Assembly (NCBI GenBank): GCA_028753945.1
Contig: JAPNXP010000012.1
Span: 3,658,001-3,722,000, forward strand
From: Hexactinellida sp. DTS-2022
Lineage: Eukaryota; Porifera; Hexactinellida
Direction of reading: 5' to 3'
Length of the DNA: 64,000 nucleotides
Under the pieces are notes generated by a model that worked only from the letters and a program-made list of their open reading frames with translations, did no database searches and was not told where the DNA came from. Below are positions 2,979 to 62,300 of the stretch, in pieces. Each line of letters begins with the position of its first letter. The stretch's first letter is position 1. A program made the translations under genes and the position numbers.

Positions 2979-5900
2979 ATGTTCCTTTGGTGGCACTATA
3001 TTTTGTTGGTTTTTTATTGATAGTGCCTCCAAAGGAACATGCTGTCGGCACAGCTGCAATTTTGGATTTTTTTTTCGCCCAGTCATCATCACTATGAAGG
3101 TGTAAAATATTTCAGAAAGGTGTTTCAGTATGCAACGACCCTTAGAGTGGTGGAAGTTTCCATTTAGCTCACTTCATTTGAGAGATATTCAAGTTTCAGT
3201 AGAATATAATCTGTGATGACTCAGCATTTTTAAAGTGCGTGTTGGGTATTCACCCAACTCCAACCAACCCATGCGAATTATTTAATTCACAAAATTGTAA
3301 AAATACATTTTTTTGACGATGTCATCATCACCTCAAGGTGTCAAGACCCACTTGTATAGGTGGTACCTGGCATAAGGACCAATTGATATATTGAAAGTTT
3401 GTTTCTATCTTGTATCATCTCTGAGATTAATGAAATTTACCTAATTAGTATAAATATTTAATTAATAAATTAATAATTTAACACCATTATTATGTACAGC
3501 AAAATAAATAAAGTTCAATTATTTGCACTTATTATTAATTTAAGTCGAATTTCACTATCATATTTGAATTCAGCGCACTCAATAACCCCAATAATCCAAT
3601 TGGAAAATTCTATAAGTTAAATACAAAAGGAATTAATTTTAATAAATTACGTCAGTACATTAATTGTGCAAAAAGAATATTCTCGCCGAAATAAATATAA
3701 TCACTTAATCTGTCGTTGTTGTGGAATGTAAAATCTTAACGGTTCTATCATAAACCATCTTTAGTTTAATGCCATTCATTCATTACTTATTGATAATAAA
3801 TTAAATTATTAGTTATATATTTTAGCAATGTTATCCACGGTGAGTTGAGTAAAGTCAACAAATTCCTTATATAAATTAATTTAATTTAATCCATTGTATA
3901 GTAATGCTACAATTAAATAGAAGCCAGCTGGAATTTATAAGTTGAATCAATATAATTATCGCAAGTTGAATCACTAGAGTAGGATTTAACAAGTTAAATC
4001 AATATAATTATTACAAGTTGAAACAATGGAATTTGATTTAACACTTTTACTGAAATTGAAGTGTGAGTAAACAAAGAAATTTCAACCCCCATTTATGGCA
4101 GAAATTAAACCATTTATTTAAAATTTTCTTCGCCCATCAGACGCAGAATCTTATGGTGAATCCAAATATGAAATAAAATTTGGGGGTTTAGTAAAACAAC
4201 TTTTGAGTTATGGACCAGACAAAATTTGAAAGGTGTTAAATATGTGTCAAAAATTTCTTAATCAAAAATCGTGACCCCAGGTGCAAATTAGACGGTCCCA
4301 TCGCACCTACATGCAAAGTTTAAGCCCATCAACGATAAAGCTCTGGCCAGGGCACCGTCTACGGAGAAAAAATAAATAAATAAAAAATCCAAAATTGCAG
4401 CCTGTGCCGACGCATGTTCCTTTGGTGGCACTATATTTTGTTGGTTGTTTATTGATAGTGCCTCCAATGGAACATGCTGTCGGCACTGGCTGCAATTTTG
4501 GATTTTTTTTCGACAAGTCATCATCAGTATAAAGGTGTTAAAATATTTCAGAAAGGTGCTTCAGGAGGCTACGACCCTTAGAGTGGTGGAAGTTTCCATT
4601 TAGCTCCCTTAATTTGAGAGATATTCAAGTTCCAGTAGAATATAATATGTGCTGAGTCAGCATTTTTAGGTGCGTGTTGGGTATTCACCCAACTCCAACC
4701 AACCCATGCGAATTATTTAATTCACAAAATTGTAAAAATACATTTTTTGCCGATGTCATAATCACCTCAAGGTGTCAAGATCCACTTGTATAGGTGGTAC
4801 CTGGCATAAGGACCAATTGATAAATTGAAAGTTTGTTTCTATCAAGCAACATCCCTGAGAGTAATGAAATTTAGCTAATTAGTATAAATATTTAATTAAT
4901 TTATTAATTATTTAACACCATTATTATATATAGCAAAATAAATAAAGTTCAATTATTTGCAATTATTATTGATTTAAATTTAATTTCACTATCATGTTTG
5001 AATTCAGCGCACTCGATAACCCCAATAATCCAATTGGAACCGTCTATAAGTTTAATACAAAACGAATTATTTATAATTAATTACGTCAGTACATTAATTG
5101 TGGAAGAATATTCTCGACGAAATAAATATAATCACTTAATCTGTCGTTGTTGTGGAATGTAAAATCTTAACGGTTCTATCATAAACCATCTTTAGTTTAA
5201 TGCCATTCATTCATTATGTATTGATAATAAATTAAATTATTAGTTATTTATTTTAGCAATGTTATCCACGGTGAGTTGAGTAAAGTCAACAAATTCCTTA
5301 TATAAATTAATTTCATTTAATCCATTGTATAGTAATGCTACAATTAAATAGAAGCCAGCTGGAATTTATAAGTTGAATCAATATAATTATCGCAAGTTGA
5401 ATCACTAGAGTAGGATTTAACAAGTTAAATCAATATAATTATTACAAGTTGAAACAATGGAATTTGATTTAACACTTTTACTGAAATTGAAGTGTGAGTA
5501 AACAAAGAAATTTCAACCCCCATTTATGGCAGAAATTAAACCATTTATTTAAAATTTTCTTCGCCCATCAGACGCAGAATTTTATGGTGAATCCAAATGT
5601 GAAATAAAATTTGGGGGTTTAGTAAAACATATTTTGTGTTATGGACCAGACAAATTTAGAAAGGTGTTAAAGATGTGTCAAAAATTTGTTAATCAAAAAT
5701 CGTAACCCCAGGTGCAAATTAGACGGTCCCATCGCACCTACATGCCAAGTTTCAGCGCATCAACTATAAAGCTCAGGCCAGGGCACCGTCTACGGAGAAA
5801 AAATAATAAAAAAATCCAAAATTGCAGCCTGTGCCGACGCATGTTCCTTTGGTGGCACTATATTTTGTTGGTTGTTTATTGATAGTGCCTCCAATGGAAC

Positions 5901-25507: not shown

Positions 25508-25689
25508 TGAAAAACTAGTTCTAATTATAAATGTTTGGGAAAATGTCAATTAAATAAGACATTGTTTACTCTGGCCTAAACAGAGCAAACAAAGGGGTGA
25601 ATAAGGAATTGACAACCCATAAAGGTTGGGAAAGACAGGGAAAGCCTGATTGAATACATAATCGGGTGACTACTGGGAAAATATATATA

Positions 25690-25876
25690 CAGTAGAGCCT
25701 CTGAACAACGGACACCTTGGGACCGGAACCGTTGTCCGTTATTTAGAGGTTGTCCGCTATTTAGAGGTTGCTTTTCTATTAGACATATGCTAAATAAATA
25801 AATCCGTGCCACGAGGGTTGTCCGTTATTTAGAGGTTGTCCGCTATTTGGAGTGTCCGTTATGGGAGGCTCCACTG
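25690..25876. mobile_element. pogo/Tigger-like MITE (intact copy)
   Basis: The terminal inverted repeats CAGTAGAGCCTC and GAGGCTCCACTG are flanked by TA on both sides, the duplication used by Tc1/mariner/pogo elements. The 187-bp interior repeats TTGTCCGTTATTTAGAGG and contains no gene. It serves as the empty-site reference for the related MITE at 55234-59177, which carries a large insertion. Confidence 0.8.
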
Positions 25877-25957
25877 TATATACAAAACCATAGCATTCTA
25901 TACATAAGGCAATGGTGCTGATTGATGGACTTGGACCAGGGATTTCTTAGGTCAGTC

Positions 25958-27335: not shown

Positions 27336-28743
27336 ATGTCTTGTGTTGTCCCAGGCTGCAAGTCTAATTATAAAAGCCAAGATGAGTCTATCTCCGCTTT
27401 TCATTTCCCAAGAGACCCGAAGGTACTTGAAGAATGGTTCAGGGCAACTATGAAACCAACAAGCAGATGAGGGTAAGTACCTATCTATAATTTCCATTTA
27501 TTGATTGCCATATTTACATTAGTTTCTTTAGGTATGCATTCGTCATTTCAAAGAAGATGACATCGAAAGGACCATATCCTACAATGACGGGGTTCATACT
27601 GTTACAGTTTCCAGAGAGAGAATAGCTCTGAAGAAGACCGCAGTACCCAGCATTTTTCCCAACTGTCCTTCCTATCTTTCTGAATTCAATTCCAAGCCAA
27701 AGAGACTATGCCTAGATGATAAAGAACGACTGCTGATGGAATCTGCATACTCCAAGAGCATAACTGACAACGAAGAAACGGTGGATAAGTTCCTAGTTAA
27801 TTCATATTCTGATCTTCTTTCTAAGCTAAATTTAATCGACCTACCAAACGGCTGGATAACTAACGTGTCTAATAACACCCCTTTATTTTTTATAAAAATC
27901 GTTATTTTAGAAACCGGACCTTTCATCGACCGATCTGTATTAATTAACGATGATTTGTACATCAAAGCATTTGAAAATAAAAACGTCACCATTCCGATCT
28001 CGCGAATTTTTATTAATGACACTCGCCAAGTTGAGACCATCCTCGATGAAGTAGATACATTTTCATTCATACTTGAAACTATTAACTCTCAAACTGAATG
28101 TTCTATTAACAACCATATAAAACTTGCTATCCATGAACTCGAAAGTGCAATTAAGCTTGTTGATGGTGACTCGATAGACCTAGACATAGATGATTTACAT
28201 TGCAGTAGCGAATCTCTGAGTATTTCATTCCACTTTTTAGTTGGGCAATTGAGAAATTTGATAAATGCTAAAAGTCGTCGACGGTATAATATTTTAACTC
28301 AAGTATTTTCACTAAAAATTCATGGAATATCACCTGCATGTTACCGACTTATTCAATCATCCAATTGCTTAATCTTGCCTCACGAGAGAAATTTGATTGG
28401 TATAAAAAACACTCTGGGTATTGAAGGTGATTACTTTCAAATTCTAAAGGAAATAACTTCCAAATTTAGCCATAGGGAACGCCATGTGATACTTCAAATG
28501 GACGAAGTTCACATCCGTAGTGATGCTTCATATAAAGGAGGTAAAGTTTTGGGTGCCATCGACAACCCTAGCGACCCCCCCACAACTGTGTTTTCAATGA
28601 TGATTTCCAGTCTTATGAAAAAGTTTTCCACCATTGTTCGTCTGATTCCGTTAGGGTCTTCCTCCGCGGCTGATTTATATCCAATTATTACAAAAAAAAA
28701 TTGTGATATAGAGAGTTGTGATCTATTTGTTGAGGCAATATAA
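27336..28743 (+). pseudogene. P-element-like THAP transposase, damaged
   Basis: Exon 1 (27336-27472) starts a THAP finger: C-x4-C (CVVPGC) followed by AFHFPRD and EEWFRA. A consensus donor GTAAGT follows, and the acceptor TTTCTTTAG precedes exon 2 at 27532. Exon 2 opens with VCIRHF, the closing C-x2-H of the finger, and stays open for 403 codons to a stop at 28741. The catalytic part includes ILQMDEVHIR and KGGKVLGAI, the acidic RNase-H-like core expected in P-element transposases. Two defects: exon 1 meets an in-frame TGA at 27468 and is one base out of phase with exon 2, as if a base were lost near ACCAACAAGCAG; and the C-terminal half of the transposase is missing, the frame ending where a GC-hairpin element begins. 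Some P elements have a spliced THAP exon, so exon 1 is credible despite the defect. Confidence 0.7.
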
Positions 28744-42134: not shown

Positions 42135-45100
42135 TCATTCTATAGAAATAATATTTTGATCGTCTTCAGCGTATGTGGGGTATCCACTATTGATTAATGT
42201 TCTTACGGGCTCATAGTGTTTTTTGAAATTAGTAATGTATATCGCAAAAGAATTATCGTAATTGTTTGATGCATTGTAGCGATGCCACCTTATGGCAGGG
42301 TTGCCGTGGGAATGGGAATTCCCATGGGAATGGGATGGGAATGGGAATCGTATTTATCCCATGGGAATTCCCACGGGTTTTCCCATGGGAATTCCCACAG
42401 ATTTTCCCATGGGAATTCCCACAGATTTTCCCATGGGAATTCCCACGGGTTTTCTCATGGGAATTCCCACAGATTTTCCCATGGGAATTCCCACGGGTTT
42501 TCCCATGGGAATTCCCACGGGGTTTCCCATGGGAATTCCCACAGGTTTTCCCATGGGAATTCCCATATGGGAATCTTGAAATTCCTTATGGATTCCCATG
42601 GGAATTCCCATGGGAAAACCCGTGGGAATTCCCATGGGAAAACATGTGGGAATGGGATGGGAATGGGAATGAAAATTCCCTTCCCACGGCAACCCTGCCT
42701 TATGGTCTTTTGAGGAATATTATATGAAGAAGATTCTTTGCTAGAGTCATCACATTCAACAGCAACATAAATATCTGTTTCTAAAATTGCAGAAGCAGCA
42801 AATATTTCAACTTCACTACCCCAAACTTTATCTTGTTGCATTATAGTCCGTGTCAAGTAACTCAATGAAGTTTCAGATATAGCATGAAAATACCACTTTA
42901 ATACCTCTCTCCCATCTTTCGCTATGAATCTGCATATTTCCCCACGGATTTTAGCATAGTGCTCTTGAGACCCAGAAATTATTTTCGAAATACATCGGAA
43001 TAAACAATTCCCATCTTTTTCAATATCTTCATATTGCCAAGGAAGATAATCACGTAGTTTATACCCTACTAGTGCTGATGGTTGTTCAATTGCTTGTCTA
43101 TAGAGTATCCCAAGCTTTAAGCATTTGTCCATTTGCCAATTCACATTCAAAGGAGCTATGGTAGGATTATGATGGAGTATAATCTTGGTATTCGGATCTG
43201 CTGTCTTGTTTAATGGAGCTACTTTTCCCATGAATGAGAAATTTATAGATTCCATTGCCTACAAATAATACAACTTTAATAAGCACAATCTTGAAGGTTA
43301 TATCTAATCTAAGTTGCATAATTCGCGTATTACGTATAATACACACACACGTAATATGTGAGGGAGAATTCATGTATTATACAATTTTATATCTGATAGC
43401 TTTTAATGATTAACTTACCACGCCATAAATAACTTTTAAGACATGATCACATGTTGCTGTTGCCCCCAATGTAGGATTCATTCTTTGTGTGAGTTCCATT
43501 AAGGAATTTACAATTTTTGATTTCTAAAAGAGTGATGAGAAAGGTAATTTCAGGTTTTTCTAAAATACTGAATGTGTCTCGAAATGTATAGAGATAATTA
43601 AATAACTAAAATAAAAATTATAATCCATAAAAATATTGTTGTTATGGTATTTATTCATACCATGTCCAATCTCCCAACATCCTTGGTAAGATCACATATC
43701 AATCCGTCAGCTATGAAGAATCCTTTTTTTGTCTTTTCGCCATCAAGTAGTTTATGGAGCTTAGAAAAATAGACTCCTTGTTTCCAGTGGTCGTAGTAAT
43801 CAGTCTAATTTGTACACAAATTATAGACAAATAATTCAAAGTCATTGCTAAATTATCAGTACCTTGAACAAATCTAGCTGTCTAATTACTTCCTCTTCCT
43901 CAAACCCATATCGCCATATTTCAGAGTTGTATTTTTCTTGTGGTTTGGAAACAGTTGGGGTTTGTTCTATTTTGGAATCTGTATTATTCTATAAAATATA
44001 TATTGATGTAACATAAGTGTACTGGTGAACAGGCAAATTTTAATATAAGAATTAGTAATAACCTTTTCCTTTGAAAAATACTTTTTAGCAAGATGATTTG
44101 GTATTTTCTTTGTTTTGGTTTTACCAATTTTGATTGGAGTATATTCGATAAAAGTAGGTGTTATCCTTTCTGCAGTAAATGGTCCTAGATATTTTGTTTG
44201 ACTTTTGGTACCCGGTATCTTCTTCTCTTTGAGAATGTTTCTAATGACAAATTGATCATCCTCTTCAATTTTAGGCCTATAAATGAAAACAGTTTAAAAA
44301 TGTATTTAAGAGAGTGTAATTTTAAAAAAATATTATAATCTTAGTTATACCTCTTGTGCTGGACCTTTGCATCAAAAATACGTTTTTGAATAGTTTGCTC
44401 ACGAAGAATGCTTTCTCGGGCTATATTCCGTGAAACTTTCCTTTTTTCATCGAAATTAGATTCATCAAAATCAGTGAAATCATCGCCATCTTCAACATCA
44501 CTTAGCAAATTTTCACCTTCACTTGATGTGATTTCCTCCTCAACTGAATCAAACTGTATTAATTTGAGTAGATTAATACAGGTGCTTTCTCTTCCAAACA
44601 TTATTTTAAGTGGAGTGGTTCTAATCGATCGTTTGTAACTACAATTCATTTTAAAGACAGCAGCAGGTAGCAGTTCAAACCATCCTTTGCCAGATTGGAT
44701 TGTCATCTTCGTTAGCACTCTATAGTTTATTTATTCCATTAATTGAATGGGTATAACAGATTTATTTAAAAGCGTAACATTGAACTTACAATATAACTCG
44801 GTTAGTACTCGGTTAGTAAAAAAGTACGTATTATCCAACTGTACGTACTAACCGAGTTGAAACTACATAGAGATACATATAAATTGACAAACTTTGTTTA
44901 TACAAGTTAGTACGTACTAAACTAGGTATATTTTGAGTTCTACTGTATTTACCTTTTCAATATTTTATTGTGAGACTCTACCAAGCCATTTGCTTGAGGA
45001 TGGTATGGTGCCGTGGATCGATTATCAATTTTGAGTTGTTCCGCAAATTTCCTGTATTCCTAGTTGATATATACACATAGTTAAGAATACAAAATATTAT

Positions 45101-53332: not shown

Positions 53333-56300
53333 CTAAAGGAAATAACATACATTATAAGCGTTACCATGAAGAAAGAAAGTACAAATTTCAAATTCTAATA
53401 ATTAAAAAAATGTAACGATATGCAGTGTATTATACAGCCATTTGTAAATACTCTCCTAATCCTGGTCTGATCCAATTTCAATACGCCTAAATCACAAATT
53501 AATGTTACGGTATAGCAGAGGATTCCAATTTTCGCGCTCCTAAATTCAAATCTGCCCCAAAACCATGCTCCAAAAGGAGCGTCTCGCAGGTTTGGGATAA
53601 TTCCTTGGTCATATGGACCATTTTGTAGGGAACGGGCAGTAGCGTAACCAGGGTGGTGAGTTAGAAATTTATATAACTCCCATACTTGCCAACCTAGGAC
53701 AGTTAAATCCCTGGCATTTCAGAGTGCTCGTTCAAACTACTACAATTTCACAAGCTCACTATGAAAAAACCCTCACAGAAGGGATGGGAGTGTGCTTCTT
53801 CTGGTTGCACAGGCCGCGCCCAATGTTTGATTTAAGTAATTTATTTACCATACTTTAACATGATACCTATCCAAATCTGAAATAAAAATTCGAAAAAAGT
53901 ATAAGTCAGAAAAAGAAAATCTAAATCTATAAAATCTTCCTTATCAGGAGAGCTATCGACTAAGTCGTGTCGGTTTTCATTCAAAGTTATAGACTTAAGA
54001 TAGTATAACAATAGGATTTCCAGGGGATTCCTGAACGCATCAATAGTCGTAGTTAATTTGCACAAACCAAGATGTATAACTATGCGAATAATTGTCAAGA
54101 ATTAGGTATTATATCAAAGGTAGTAGTATATCAAGTATAAAAACTTTTGAAGGAAACTTGTCTAGGCGCGGAAAAATCGAGAGATGCTCCCATTGAAATA
54201 TACAAATTGAGTATTTTAGACGTGTGTGAGCGAGTTCAAACTTAATCTAGGCACGCATAAAATTTTGCCTAGATGAAAGCCTGGTTAGATCCAACTAAAA
54301 ATGCTAGATTATAAGTAGGAACGAATACAGTCCTGAGATTCATTAAAGTAAACTGTAAAGTCATTGATTGCTTAAATAATTGTACATACCACATAGGTTA
54401 TGAATTATACGAAATATTTTGTCTGGACTTTGGGGAATACATTGGCTGAGGGAAGAATTAGCGAATGAGACCGGAGAACCACCGCAAGTCTAGAGATGGC
54501 TAGGTCACTGGGCCGAGAAATATATATACATTTGTTGATTAGTGCAATAGTGTGAGATGCTTTTTTAAACTACATGTCTCGCTGTATAACTCCTGAGCTA
54601 AGGCATTTTCGAAACTGTTCCATGTCAATTAAGAGCTTAGCTATCAAAGCTACAGACCTGGTTTTATCCATATAACAGGGACTCGGTGATAAATGACTTT
54701 AGGAAGTTGTTCCTCCAAGACTCCCTTTTTTCTATCCCACCTAGCTCCTTCCAGAAACAGCCCGTGTACGTAAGCACCATCTTCTGGGTGAGTATCCATG
54801 TGGTCAACTTGTAATACCTAAAATATTTCAGTAAACATTATAATTTCTAATAGTATTATATTCTAATCGAAATACACGAAACGTAATTATTAGGAATTAT
54901 CTATTTTATCTCTTGTTCTAATATAGCGATGTTTGTTCTAATAAACGATGTTCACAACAAACAACCGTAAATATTCATTGAGAAAATTAATGGATTAAAA
55001 TAACATTCGCTGTCTCTAAGAGGAATTTGATCAGTCCCTCGCTTACCTATATTCAGCACACTACCTTGGTAACAAACCTTGAACTGGAATCCCAGTCTAT
55101 CTAGTGGAATGACATACTTTCTAGCGTAGTTCTGCAAGGTTCCTGTTAGGAAAGCTTGAGGGAAGAAAAAAGCTGAAATCCAAAAAGTGCTCGGTTTGCC
55201 ATTGTCAATCCATTTCTATAAATAGGAACATTACAGTGGAGCCTCCCATAACGGACACTCCAAATAGCGGACAACCTCTAAATAATGGACAACCCTCGTG
55301 GCACGGATTTATTTATTTAGCATATGTCTAATAGAAAAGCAACCTCTAAATAGCGGACAACCTCTAAATAACGGACAACGGTTCCGGTCCCAAGGTTTCC
55401 GTTGTTCAGAGGCTCTACTCACGGGTGTAATATATTTACGAAATATTAAGAAAAATTACCAACGCAAACCACCTTATAAACCACGTTCCTTGATGTCCAT
55501 AGAATAGGAATCCAAGTTTATCTCACTCTGGTGACGTCAATTTTTTTATATATTTTGATTTTATTATGTGACGTCATTATTTTTTTGGGGGAAAAATATT
55601 TTTATTTATTTTTCATTAAATATATATTATATCTACATATTTCTTCAAGAATTATTAATAACTATCATATATGGTATATATTTATGTATTTTCTAAATTC
55701 CCTTGCCAATTTAGGATTTGTCAACTATTAACCTCTATTTCTCTGAGACACAAAAGTATCTTTATTAGCTAATTATCTGGGCTATTATCACACTATATTT
55801 AAAACTCTACTTATTTAAAACTTAATATTTTAATAGAAACACATAATTAGTACAATAATAGTTATTCTTAAATAAGTTTAGATAGGAATCAAATGTGATA
55901 ATCTTAGATTTCGTGCGAAAAATATTCTGTAATTTCAATATCCATTATTTATTACTCTGCATTCATTGTATAAATAGTATGAGACAGTTATAATAATTGA
56001 GTAATTAGCATGTTATTGATTTCTTAATCAATCAGTATCACTTTCATCCGAGTATTCAGAATCAGTTAACCAATTATGTAGTTCTATTCTTTCTTCATCA
56101 TGCTCGTTTGAATCCCCTTCACTATTGAATTATTCGATTGAGTTTTGATCTTCATCCGGATTTCCTACAGATCTAATTGCTTTATCCCACTTTAAGTTAT
56201 AGTTGTATGTTACCATGCAATCCACAAGACGTTGAGAAAATATGGGATTTTCTGCCTTAGTCTTGAATCGTAAATCCCACACCTTTTGCAACCTGGAATG

Positions 56301-59300
56301 TAGCATTTCTCCACTTTGTTCTGAACTAATTGCTGCCCCTGCATTAGCGATATTCTCATAACGGGTGAAGTATTCTTCATAATGATCAGATAGAATATGT
56401 GATTTTAAGGACCATGATAAACCTGTAGCATGCCATGCCTCCCTAAATACTCTGATGCTGCCTTCCCATCCTTCTTTCCTTACCGTCCCTAGGAGATTGT
56501 CTTTTACATCTTTCAAAGCTTTTAATGCTTTGACGAATTTTAGTGAGGTGTTTGGGAAAGGAATATCGTCTAAATGATCTAAAAGTCTCGAGCATGAATT
56601 ACCCTCAAGAGTACCATTCCAATACTCTGAACGATAGATATTATATTTACATAATGCTAAGCAATGAAGCTTGTAGAGCTGACGACCTTTTCTATTTGAT
56701 GTTTCGTGACTAGGTTTTGCTTCAGAAAAAAGCCTATTCACCAAACCAAGCAGAACATGCAATGGCGCTAAAGCAACCTTTTCCATCACTGACTCGGACC
56801 AGTGTATGATTGGCTCGTTAATAACATTGTGACGCTTTTTTTCGAGGTCAACTATCATTTCTTCTCTCTTCCTAGAATGTCCAGGTAAGCCTGTGCATAT
56901 AGTATTATTGCGCCATAAACAGAAAGGGCAGGGGTATTTGCTCGATGCTTGCTGAATGCCGACAAGTAATGCTGCAACCTTAAAGTCACAAGATATTTGC
57001 ACATGACTCTCGAGTGAAAATATTTTGCTTATGGATGGAAAACTAAATAATTCCTTCAGATTATGATAGTTCTCTGGACCATGACCCATTGCGATAACAA
57101 AATTAGAAAGTACGCTATTTGGTGTTGGAGAATAAAGGCAACAAGCCTTCATTGAAACAATGTTCAAAGAAACTTTCAGGAATTCCTTACCTCCATCAAC
57201 TTGTAACTTCAGTCTAGAAATCTGATTCGATTGATTGTGTGTGATGATATCGAGAAGATACTTAACGTCTGTACAAAATCCGAATGGAGTAGGTTTTGGG
57301 GTAATAGTATGATTTTCTCGAATTATAGAAAGGATAACTGGAGAAAAGATGCTTCCAAAAATAGACCATTTTTCATCCCATGCCTCTTTAATTCCTCCTG
57401 GGGGAAAAGAGATCCCATCTCGACGTAAAATTCTGGCCAATTCCCAATAGGTCTGTTTGCCAAGACCTAGATGTCCTAGCCTCTGTATATCCCGTGCAGA
57501 TTCCACGCTCAATTGTTTAAGTACAGTATTTCTACCTTTATATCCAACTGTTGTTACAGCTAGCATGTTATTAGAGTCATAAGGATGATTGAGACTGACT
57601 AGAGGCTTGGAAGAATTTGAGTTATTAATAATATTACTGTCTTCTTCCAGTGTATGTTTAAGGAATTCAGCTGCTACTTTACTTGTAAAACCTCGAGCTT
57701 CTACCCTCTCAGCGAAAAGTTTACCAGCTTCGTAAGAGCTTTTGGGATGTTTTATAATATTTCTACAAAATCTTTCATCATGATTTTCCATATAACTCCC
57801 ACATTTACTACACATCACCTTACAAGGTGACTGTTCCAAAGGTCTTCCGGGTCGTGGACCAAAGGTATTCAATTTGACTATGAAGTTGTTGAGGGATGAT
57901 CCATTGATTTGGCAAACATGACAACGATTATCTACCTTACAGCCCACTTTACTGCGAATGGAATATTGTTGATCTTCAAAACTAGGTAAGATCTCAAGTG
58001 TTTGACGATCGTTCTCAAATTTACACAAAGCAAGTTTGCCTGTGTCTAGATTCGCAAGCCTAGTACGACAACCGCAACAAAGTACTTTGGGCTTTGTCAT
58101 ATCTGAAAGTTCAAACTTGAAATTTATCTGGTAGTAATTTTCAGCTCTTTCAACGACCAGTTGAGTAAGGGGTTTTCTAATGGATTCCTTCGGTAAAACT
58201 TTGGAAGAAATTCTGTTGAAACAAAAGCGACAAACACGATACAGGTTGTCAATATGATGACTATCATAAAGATCTGTCATTTCATTAGGAATTGCCATAG
58301 ATGTAAATGATCAAAATTGGAAATATAGTAAGTCTGAAAATCAGTGTTATATAATCTCAAGTATTGGTTAATCTATTTATTATATAAATTATATCCTACA
58401 TTTGACTTATAAGTATTCAAAGTGTATATATTAAGAGAAAACTATAGTATTTGTGGAATTAGCATGTAATTGATGATCTTTCTAAATCAGAATTGCTTCA
58501 TCCGAGTATTCAGAATCAGTCAGTTCTATTCATTCTTCATTATGCTACCTGATTTCTTTTCAAAACAGGCATTTGTATTATATTTTTCATCACCCGTATT
58601 GATTGTAAATGTTTTCTGGCTTCGTTAAAGAGTAAGAAAAAGTGGCTATAGAAATTACAGAATATTTTCCGTCCGAAATATAAGATTATCACATTTGATT
58701 CCTATCTAAACTTATTTAAGAATAACCTATTATTGTACTAATTATGTGTTTCTATTAAAATATTAAGTTTTAAATAAGTAGAGTTTTAAATATAGTGTGA
58801 TAATAGCCCAGATAAATTAGCTAATAAAGATACTTTTGTGTCTCAGAGAAATAGAGGTTAATAGTTGACTGACAAATCCTAAACTTGGCTAGGAATTTAG
58901 AAAATACATAAATATATACCATATATGATAGTTATTAATAATTCTTGAAGAAATATGTAGATATAATATATATTTAATCAAAAATAAATAAAAATATTTT
59001 TCCCCCAAAAAAATAATGACTTCACTAATAAAATCAAAATATATAAAAAAATTGACGTCACCAGAGTGAGATAAACTTGGATTCCTATTCTATGGACATC
59101 AAGGAACGTGGTTTATAAGGTGGTTTGCGTTGGTAATTTTTCTTAATATTTCGTAAATATATTACACCCGTGTACTGTAGATCCAAAAGTACTTGAACAA
59201 CAACAATTAGCATTCATACATTCAAACTTCTTGCAGCATAATAACATTTATAGATGTTTCAACATGGATGTTTACATAAATCAATTTGCTAAGTTACTAA

Positions 59301-62300
59301 AATAGAAAAAAAATTGAATTTACATATTTGTGGAGCAGTGCAGGTGTTAAACTCATCAATATATAATGAGCTAATTAAATATATAATTTCTGATCAATAT
59401 GAGGCAATTAGAATATACTAATTCTGATTTAGTATTTCAAAAATCATTATTATTATTTTCAACTGAGATGCAACCACATTTCCATTTGCGCCACTTTGCA
59501 CAAGTGCCACATGGCAGACAGTTATGCCACTTCATGGATATTAAATAAATTGGCATGAAATCATAATATTTTTTAATTTATAACTTTTGTAAGATATTTA
59601 TAGTCATTTCAGAGTAGTTTAAACAGCCGTTAATAAGTTACCAAACGAATATTGTGTCTGCATTAAAATTCCTATTGTGCAAATACTTTTGGCTGGATAG
59701 TGAAAACTAGCTGCACCCATAGTATTTAAGAAAATGTACGCATATTTAGAACCTTTATCCCATAATGAAATTGTTACCTGAAGAAAATTCAATCTCTCCA
59801 ACAAGTCCTTAACGTAACTGCCTAGCGGCTTGAGAGATAGATAGGATTTATTTGACCATAAAGTCGGTACTTTCCCTATCAAGAGGCTATCAGCTAAACT
59901 CTCCAACTCTGCACTCATAATGGTTAGTCCCCTAATAGCTTTCTGTAGGTTAATCAGTGTGTCACGCATAACTGAAGTCAGTATATTGAATTTCTCCATT
60001 TCTTGCACTAGTACTGAATTAGTGGATTCCTGGTATGTCACGGGGTAGTTTTCAAGAGCAACTTCTAAGTCGAACTGAGCTACCATCTAAATAGAAGATA
60101 TAGGTATAATGGAGTTGCGTGTTAAGAAAAGTTATACACATCATAGTTACAATATACAGTATCCGGAAATAAGTATTTGAACACTATATAATCTTATAGA
60201 ATTTACTCCCCATTACTAACCCTAAATTTCTGCTGTCTCTATATATCCGAACTTTTCTGTATTATAAAATAATAGTTCCCGAACAAATCTTACTAATGTA
60301 GGTATTCCAGTTCGCTGCTTATTTGACCTGTATTTGTTGAATTAGATTTTCACTATTCCTACTTCACAGTGTAGGTAGTGCTTGTTCTCCGGCCTGCCCC
60401 CCCCCCCCTGCCTACCTATTTCCCCCTAAGGGGACAGAAAGGGGGCAATTTGCCCAAAAATGTTCCACGAGGACAATTTTTAATTCTGGTCCTCTTTTTA
60501 ACATGCTTTAATACTCTAAATTTTGTATATTTTGTTTTAGAATCTAGATACTATAGGAATGCCATGTAGTAACTGACTATTTTACTCTAGCCACAATTTA
60601 ATTAACGTATACACAGTTTACTAGCTAATTTTGTTCTACAAATACTAGTGAACTATATAATATACGAGCCCTTCGGTCTCGGTCGCTTTGCGACAGATCG
60701 GTGCTACGCACCTAAAGTTAACGGCCGATACGCGGCCTTCCTCCCACTAAACAATTGATTACATAGTTAATAATATTTGTCATAGTTATATACTTATAAT
60801 ACCCGTTTACTTATAAGACTCGGTGAAAGCTAACTTCTGGGTTGATTTTGAATTTTCATAATTTTTTTACCTATTTGTGTAAACAATAACAATAAATATT
60901 CATATTATAAATTTATAAACGCGAAATTCGTGTTCAGCATACTTGTTTACCTATAATACCCGTTGGAAGCTAACTTCTAGGTTGATTTTGAATTTTAATT
61001 AATTTGTTTACCTATTTGTGTAAACAACAACAACAAATATTCATATTACAAATTTATAAACGCGAAATTCGAAATCAGCATACTTGTTTACCTATTATAA
61101 CATTTGAAAGTTAGTTTATCTCTCATATATTAATGCGGTTTCTATTCCCCCATCACTTTAATACAATCCGGACAAACAAACACACACACAAACAAACACA
61201 CAACAATCGAGATTTAATAATAATATACGAGCCCTTCGGTCTCGGTCGCTTTGCGACAGATCGGTGCTACGCACCTCAAGTTAACGGCCGCTGTGCGGCC
61301 TTACTCCTCACATTTTCTACCATGGAAATGGTAGATAGGGACGTTATGATTTTGATTTTCATTAATTTGTTTACCTATTTGCGTAAACAACAACAACAAC
61401 AAATACTCATATTAGAATTTTATAAATGCGAAATTCGTGTTCAGCACACTTGTTTACTTATAATACCTATTAAAGGTTAACTTCTAGGTTGATTTTGAAT
61501 TTTCATTAAATTGTTTAGCTATTTTGAGTGAACAACAACAACAACAACAAATATTCATATTATAAAATTTAAACGCGAAATTCGTGTTCAGCATACTTGT
61601 TTACCTACAATACCCGTTGAAAGCTAACTTCTAGGTTGATTCTGAATTTTCATTTTTTTGTTTACCTATTTTGTGTAAACACCAACAACAAATATTCATA
61701 TTAGAAAATTTTAACCGCGAAAATCGTGTTCAGCATACTTGTTTACCTATAATACCCGTTGAAAGCTGACTTCTAGGTTGATTTTGAATTTTCATTAATT
61801 TGTTTACCTATTTTGTGTAAACAACAACAACAAATATTAATATTATAAATTTATAAACGCGAAATTCGTGTTCAGCATACTTGTTTACCTATAATACCCG
61901 TTGGAAGCTAACTTCTAGGTTGATTTTGAATTTTAATTAATTTGTTTACCTATTTGTGTAAACAACAACAACAAATATTCATATTACAAATTTTAACCGC
62001 GAAAATCGTGTTCAGCATACTTGTTTACCTATAATACCCGTTGAAAGCTAACTTCTAGGTTGATTTTGAATTTTCATTAATTTGTTTACCTATTTTGTGT
62101 AAACAACAACAACAAATATTCCTATTATAAATTTTAACCGCGAAAATCGTGTTCAGCATACTTGTTTACCTATAATACCCGTTGAAAGCTAACTTCTAGG
62201 TTGATTTTGAATTTTCATTAATTTGTTTACCTATTTTGTGTAAACAACAACAATAAATATTCATATTATAAATTTATAAATGCGAAATTCGTGTTCAGCA

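Follow-up and report, generated by a model that had tools for sequence, protein, structure and literature searches.

Chapaev transposons form a superfamily of the CMC group (Kapitonov and Jurka 2007, as cited in PMC4411706 and PMC4079192), which PMC4411706 places within the Transib superfamily as one of its clades. As described in PMC4079192, their marks are a DDE transposase with C(2)C, LH and H(4)H motifs, CAC/GTG ends and target-site duplications of 3-4 bp. The Chapaev3 elements Merrow, Garfield and Conan are given there with 3-bp TWA duplications and, for Garfield, an enzyme of 556 amino acids. According to PMC12730594, the C(2)C and H(3-4)H motifs are common to the wider CMCT group and RAG1, and the CMCT lineages mostly have CA..TG ends and 2- to 5-bp duplications, with 3 bp in EnSpm and TA in ESTA. 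Here we analyse an element near the right-hand end of a 64,000-nucleotide stretch from Hexactinellida sp. DTS-2022 (assembly GCA_028753945.1, contig JAPNXP010000012.1, positions 3,658,001 to 3,722,000, forward strand), the whole of which we call the window. It is very probably a Chapaev-type cut-and-paste DNA transposon, an assignment made by published hallmarks. The biology of the Chapaev group is called largely uncharacterized in PMC4079192, and the element adds to the group a recently mobile family with a proved insertion site.

The window element has every hallmark that PMC4079192 lists, i.e. CAC/GTG ends, a 4-bp duplication, and the C(2)C, LH and H(4)H motifs together with the DDE residues, and the label "Chapaev-like" given by a first-pass annotation of the bare sequence holds in this sense. 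Like Chapaev, the element also has a cysteine-rich N-terminal region. Compared by description, the families studied here have terminal inverted repeats (TIRs) of ~540 bp and a C-terminal acidic tail that the window copy has lost. The core motifs and the CAC/GTG ends are shared with Chapaev3 as well, but the duplications here are 4 bp long and varied in sequence instead of the 3-bp TWA, and the enzymes have 722-756 residues versus the 556 printed for Garfield. What we describe is a new family within a known type, with no claim made about what is in print for the host species. The protein of the element is P0001; scans of viral and prokaryotic contigs yielded no relatives.

The element and its insertion site

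The transposon extends over 55420-59172 (3753 bp) from CAC to GTG, and its termini read CACGGGTG...CACCCGTG with the left edge corrected to 55420; the start at 55440 given by the first-pass annotation lies 20 bp inside the element. The left and right TIRs measure 539 and 544 bp and differ by 22 substitutions per 544 compared columns, so that the earlier claim of near-identity stands and the length of ~510 bp does not. The unbroken 722-codon frame was found as annotated, running from 58298 to 56130 on the minus strand. An internal direct repeat, whose right copy covers element bases 2996-3127, is 73.8% identical over 145 columns with 24 bp identical; it is a repeat of the transposase 3' end lying upstream of the ATG of the same gene. 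By analogy with other DDE transposases, the enzyme would bind both TIRs and excise the element at its CAC/GTG ends, and the excised element would then join staggered 4-bp target cuts followed by fill-in.

The element sits inside a miniature inverted-repeat transposable element (MITE), and an unoccupied copy of this MITE in the same window reveals the empty site. When the two flanks are joined with a single TACT, they match window positions 25878-25685 with 98.5% identity over 194 bp. Only six matched bases, five of them identical, lie to the right of the junction because the insertion site is near the MITE end, and the proof of the empty site rests on the left side plus the restored MITE terminus. 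The TACT duplication and its unoccupied counterpart, both pointed out before, are borne out within this limit. Both MITE copies (25685-25878 and 55232-55419) have CAGTRGAGCCTC-type ends adjoining TA, which are reminiscent of Tc1/mariner or pogo derivatives.

The 4-bp duplication recurs in the family. Searching the genome (112.4 Mb in 18 contigs) gave at least 28 matches to the middle DNA of the element, at least 42 to the left repeat and at least 65 to the protein; these are lower bounds, and several pieces may belong to one copy. We scanned 21 places (the window and L009-L028) for paired ends, allowing up to two mismatches per 12-letter end, and found them in 13, of which 12 have a duplication of exactly 4 bp. 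This is not expected by chance. All 13 start with CAC and 12 end with GTG (L019 ends with GTA, and the window copy is exact), a tally that is not independent outside the window since the places were found with this very terminus. L026 has two candidate left ends, and the exact one yields the duplication. L013, whose frame is the longest of all the copies, has paired ends but no matching duplication, and this counts against the Chapaev-type reading. The other eight places gave no end pair in the scan; for one of them, L010, an insertion separates the left end, located in L053, from the rest, and AGGA stands on both outer sides. Two diverged families, with ~70% and ~65% DNA identity, have the same termini and 4-bp duplications.

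Recent copies and the shortened frame

The family moved very recently. Seven copies, including the window copy, are 98.9-99.9% alike over the aligned stretches, and an eighth (L024) is fragmentary with pieces at 98.3-98.9%. A near twin of the window copy, L009, lies ~412 kb from it on the same contig; over the 3753 bp the two differ by three substitutions and no indel, and their 722-residue proteins are 100% identical. The duplication of L009 is AGTT in element orientation, different from TACT in the window, and these two insertions support the earlier suggestion of current or very recent activity. Among the two-ended copies the flanks differ, and so do the duplications apart from one shared AACT.

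The window copy is not complete in its coding part, contrary to what had been annotated. Beyond the TAA at 56130-56132 the same frame continues for 33 codons to a TGA, and at this site the seven aligned copies read TAA in the window, L009 and L011 versus GAA in L010, L012, L013 and L014. Only in L013 is the frame open throughout (756 codons) among the GAA copies, those of L010, L012 and L014 being broken further upstream; L011, the third TAA copy, is disrupted. In the diverged families L017 and L025 the frame stays open past this point, giving 747 and 755 residues, and both have the acidic tail motif ER(I/V)EL(H/R)NWxTD; the tail is conserved between families with 57-67% protein identity. Our six-row protein alignment A2 reveals no tail of this type in the distant relatives L059 and L060. 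The window protein is a C-terminally shortened form with 34 residues fewer than that of L013, the conserved acidic tail included. The window copy and L009 share the stop and occupy different sites, and therefore the shortened form has probably itself moved at least once, barring recurrent mutation or gene conversion behind the shared stop. The transposase responsible would be either its own 722-residue form or one supplied by a longer copy.

The latter option leads to the strongest alternative, to which we give a chance only slightly short of even: the window copy could be a dead passenger, its shortened protein being inactive and its movement being provided in trans by a full-length copy of the L013 type. 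The severed tail is the part conserved between families, a full 756-codon frame does exist, and four of the seven near-identical copies have GAA in place of the stop, all in favour of a passenger. However, the 722-residue proteins of the window and L009 are identical with all core residues intact, the tail is not universal given its absence from L059 and L060 in A2, and the stop is present in both members of the closest pair among the seven aligned copies. The natural pair of 722- and 756-codon frames provides a simple test of the role of the acidic tail.

An alternative hypothesis, which we consider unlikely, could be that the tail region is kept mainly as DNA to which the transposase binds near the end of the element, and that coding is only its secondary role. 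The direct repeat places the same stretch inside the other end of the element, and the fraction of unchanged residues with identical codons is higher in the tail than in the core, both for L017 (15/19 versus 188/355, Fisher p 0.033) and for L025 (8/12 versus 139/313, p 0.15). But these counts are very small and the L025 comparison is not significant, and when a second copy of the repeat was sought in the L017 element, only matches of up to 9 bp were found. We also speculate, with somewhat less conviction, that the acidic tail might act as a brake on transposition and that the youngest subfamily might have spread after a nonsense change removed this brake and left the core intact.

It is very unlikely that the near-identity of the copies reflects gene conversion or assembly error instead of recent jumps. 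Sites 56132 and 58402 occur in all four combinations among the seven aligned copies, and therefore recombination, conversion or recurrent mutation has occurred. Nevertheless, copies with both ends have different flanks and mostly different duplications, and the window copy lies in a MITE whose empty counterpart is found in the same window.

The transposase and its relation to Transib and RAG1

It is also very unlikely that the element comes from another CMCT lineage (EnSpm/CACTA, Mirage, Chapaev3, Plavaka, ESTA or Lanisha) and not from Chapaev in the narrow sense. In favour of such an origin, CMCT lineages as described in PMC12730594 have in common duplications of 2 to 5 bp, the C(2)C and H(3-4)H motifs and, for the most part, the CA..TG ends. 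Against it, the 4-bp duplications at 12 of 13 paired-end places fit neither the 3 bp of EnSpm, nor the TA of ESTA, nor the TWA of Chapaev3.

Alignment A2 has six rows, namely P0001, L017, L025, L013 (99% identical), and L059 and L060 (27% and 29% identity), and in all six D368, D438, C457, C460, L513, H514, H634, H639, E660 and E664 are invariant. Five rows have the N-terminus, one of them the 99% identical copy, and four CxxC pairs and C178 are the same in all five. The residue numbers of mouse RAG1 in PMC4914335 give distances of 19 from the second D to the first C, 3 between the C residues, 5 between the H residues and 20 from H to E. The corresponding distances are 19 (D438-C457), 3 (C457-C460), 5 (H634-H639) and 21 (H639-E660) in P0001 and the three close rows, and 17, 3, 5 and 20 in L059 and L060. 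Judged by its distance from H639, E660 is a better candidate than E664 for the catalytic E; the profile alignment pairs E660 with E605 of the Transib-like protein L063 and not with E606, which lies 20 residues past the second H, and this one-residue offset weakens the choice. The ratio of nonsynonymous to synonymous substitution rates (dN/dS) between the window copy and L017 is 0.12 (NG86), a value that points to long-term purifying selection on the transposase. The young copies have few changes, and dN is not below dS between the window copy and L013.

Our analysis supports a distant relationship of the element to the Transib/RAG1 group, RAG1 being the enzyme of antibody-gene rearrangement, as had been proposed, through a bridge of Transib-like proteins and not through direct similarity to RAG1. 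The A2 profile matched a profile of five Transib-like proteins of the same genome, drawn from 69 genome matches plus L061, with a profile-profile E value of 7.8e-7 and a score of 62.4; 40 column shuffles scored 18.2 on average and 25.75 at most, and the reversed profile scored 16.9. The two D residues, C2C, LH, GN and H(4)H are in register, the same order being found in Transib and RAG1. With fewer rows the match weakens to E 1.3e-4. The profile searches suggested by the first-pass annotation gave a match to the Transib-like proteins and none directly to the RAG1 model.

Several observations weigh against the Chapaev-type explanation as a whole. Pfam, its RAG1 model included, gave no match to P0001 at E 10, and alignments A1 and A6 found nothing above chance there; PDB sequences gave only chance-level matches to P0001 and to A1, A2 and A6. 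The close families alone match the Transib-like profile weakly (E 0.017). The distance between the two D residues is 70 or 59 versus 108 in RAG1, and the distance from the second D to C is 17 and not 19 in L059 and L060. As for selection, dS between the window copy and L017 is high (1.86), L025 yielded no dS, and YN00 gave no result for the diverged pairs. Unlike RAG1 and Transib, for which PMC8355894 gives a 5-bp target-site duplication, the element duplicates 4 bp, and it has no direct match to RAG1 or to PDB entry 6pqn.

The RAG1 core model PF12940 was found at no fewer than 33 places in the genome (15 above the cut-off) among the matches listed, and none of its matches lies at the Chapaev element. 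The two places inspected, L061 and L063, are Transib-like. L063 matches 6pqn, listed as a DNA-mediated transposase, at E 1.7e-22; its matches to RAG1L 6b40 (1.2e-7) and to RAG1 chains (4.5e-6 to 1.9e-5) are weaker. We take 6pqn to be HzTransib. A Transib-like protein of 690 residues has 69 matches in the genome, some being pieces of one copy, at 40-99% identity besides itself, and the Transib-like set (L061 and L063-L066) includes several open frames of ~700 codons. Many Transib-like elements thus share the host genome with the Chapaev family, and both relatives of RAG1 are present side by side in one genome.

The cysteine-rich N-terminus is plausibly comparable to that of RAG1 on the basis of the printed description, in which the Chapa domain of Chapaevs is a complex zinc finger that RAG1 has too (PMC4411706). 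The likeness consists of several CxxC pairs within the first 200 residues. The profile searches, however, did not detect the RAG1-like N-terminus that had been suggested: searching with a profile of this region yielded no RAG1 at E 10 from a PDB set including a 1040-residue RAG1 chain, and no RAG1 model from Pfam. The RAG1 N-terminal model PF12560 found nothing in the genome, and it was silent in every control genome too.

Feature coordinates and neighbourhood

Table 1. Positions of the transposon parts and of the MITE copies in the window
Feature	Position	Strand	Remark
Left target-site duplication TACT	55416..55419	none	Empty site seen in MITE copy
Left TIR, first letters CACGGGTGTAAT	55420..55958	none	
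Internal direct repeat, left copy	55961..56104	none	Overlaps most acidic-tail codons
Codons 724-756 and TGA (acidic tail)	56028..56129	minus	Severed by preceding TAA; open in L013, L017, L025
Transposase frame P0001, 722 codons and TAA	56130..58298	minus	
Residues 368-664 (D368, D438, C457/C460, L513-H514, H634/H639, E660, E664)	56307..57197	minus	Invariant in A2; in register with Transib-like proteins
Cysteine-rich N-terminal region, residues 15-178 (C23/C26, C74/C77, C126/C129, C163/C166, C178)	57765..58256	minus	
Internal direct repeat, right copy	58415..58546	none	Upstream of ATG
Right TIR, last letters ATTACACCCGTG	58629..59172	none	
Right target-site duplication TACT	59173..59176	none	
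MITE, left part, host of insertion	55232..55419	none	Right remnant 59177-59182
Unoccupied MITE copy	25685..25878	none	Empty site

The frames near the element are eukaryotic and include the Ras family and a dynein heavy chain. A match to the dynein heavy chain C-terminal domain (59619-60086, E 8.5e-35) begins ~450 bp past the right end of the element, and judging from this frame the element may have inserted into a host gene or near one.

Elsewhere in the window, a frame at 27736-28743 with a TNP-like_RNaseH_N match (E 1.8e-7) is probably part of a P-element-like transposase, and a frame at 42455-43255 encodes an OTU protease domain and runs into a low-complexity WEFP-rich stretch. The distant Chapaev-like frame L059 (G000:C8:1420000-1424500) has 676 codons, and its first part recurs inverted (476 bp, 99.8%) ~2.5 kb downstream, reaching the end of the fetched stretch.

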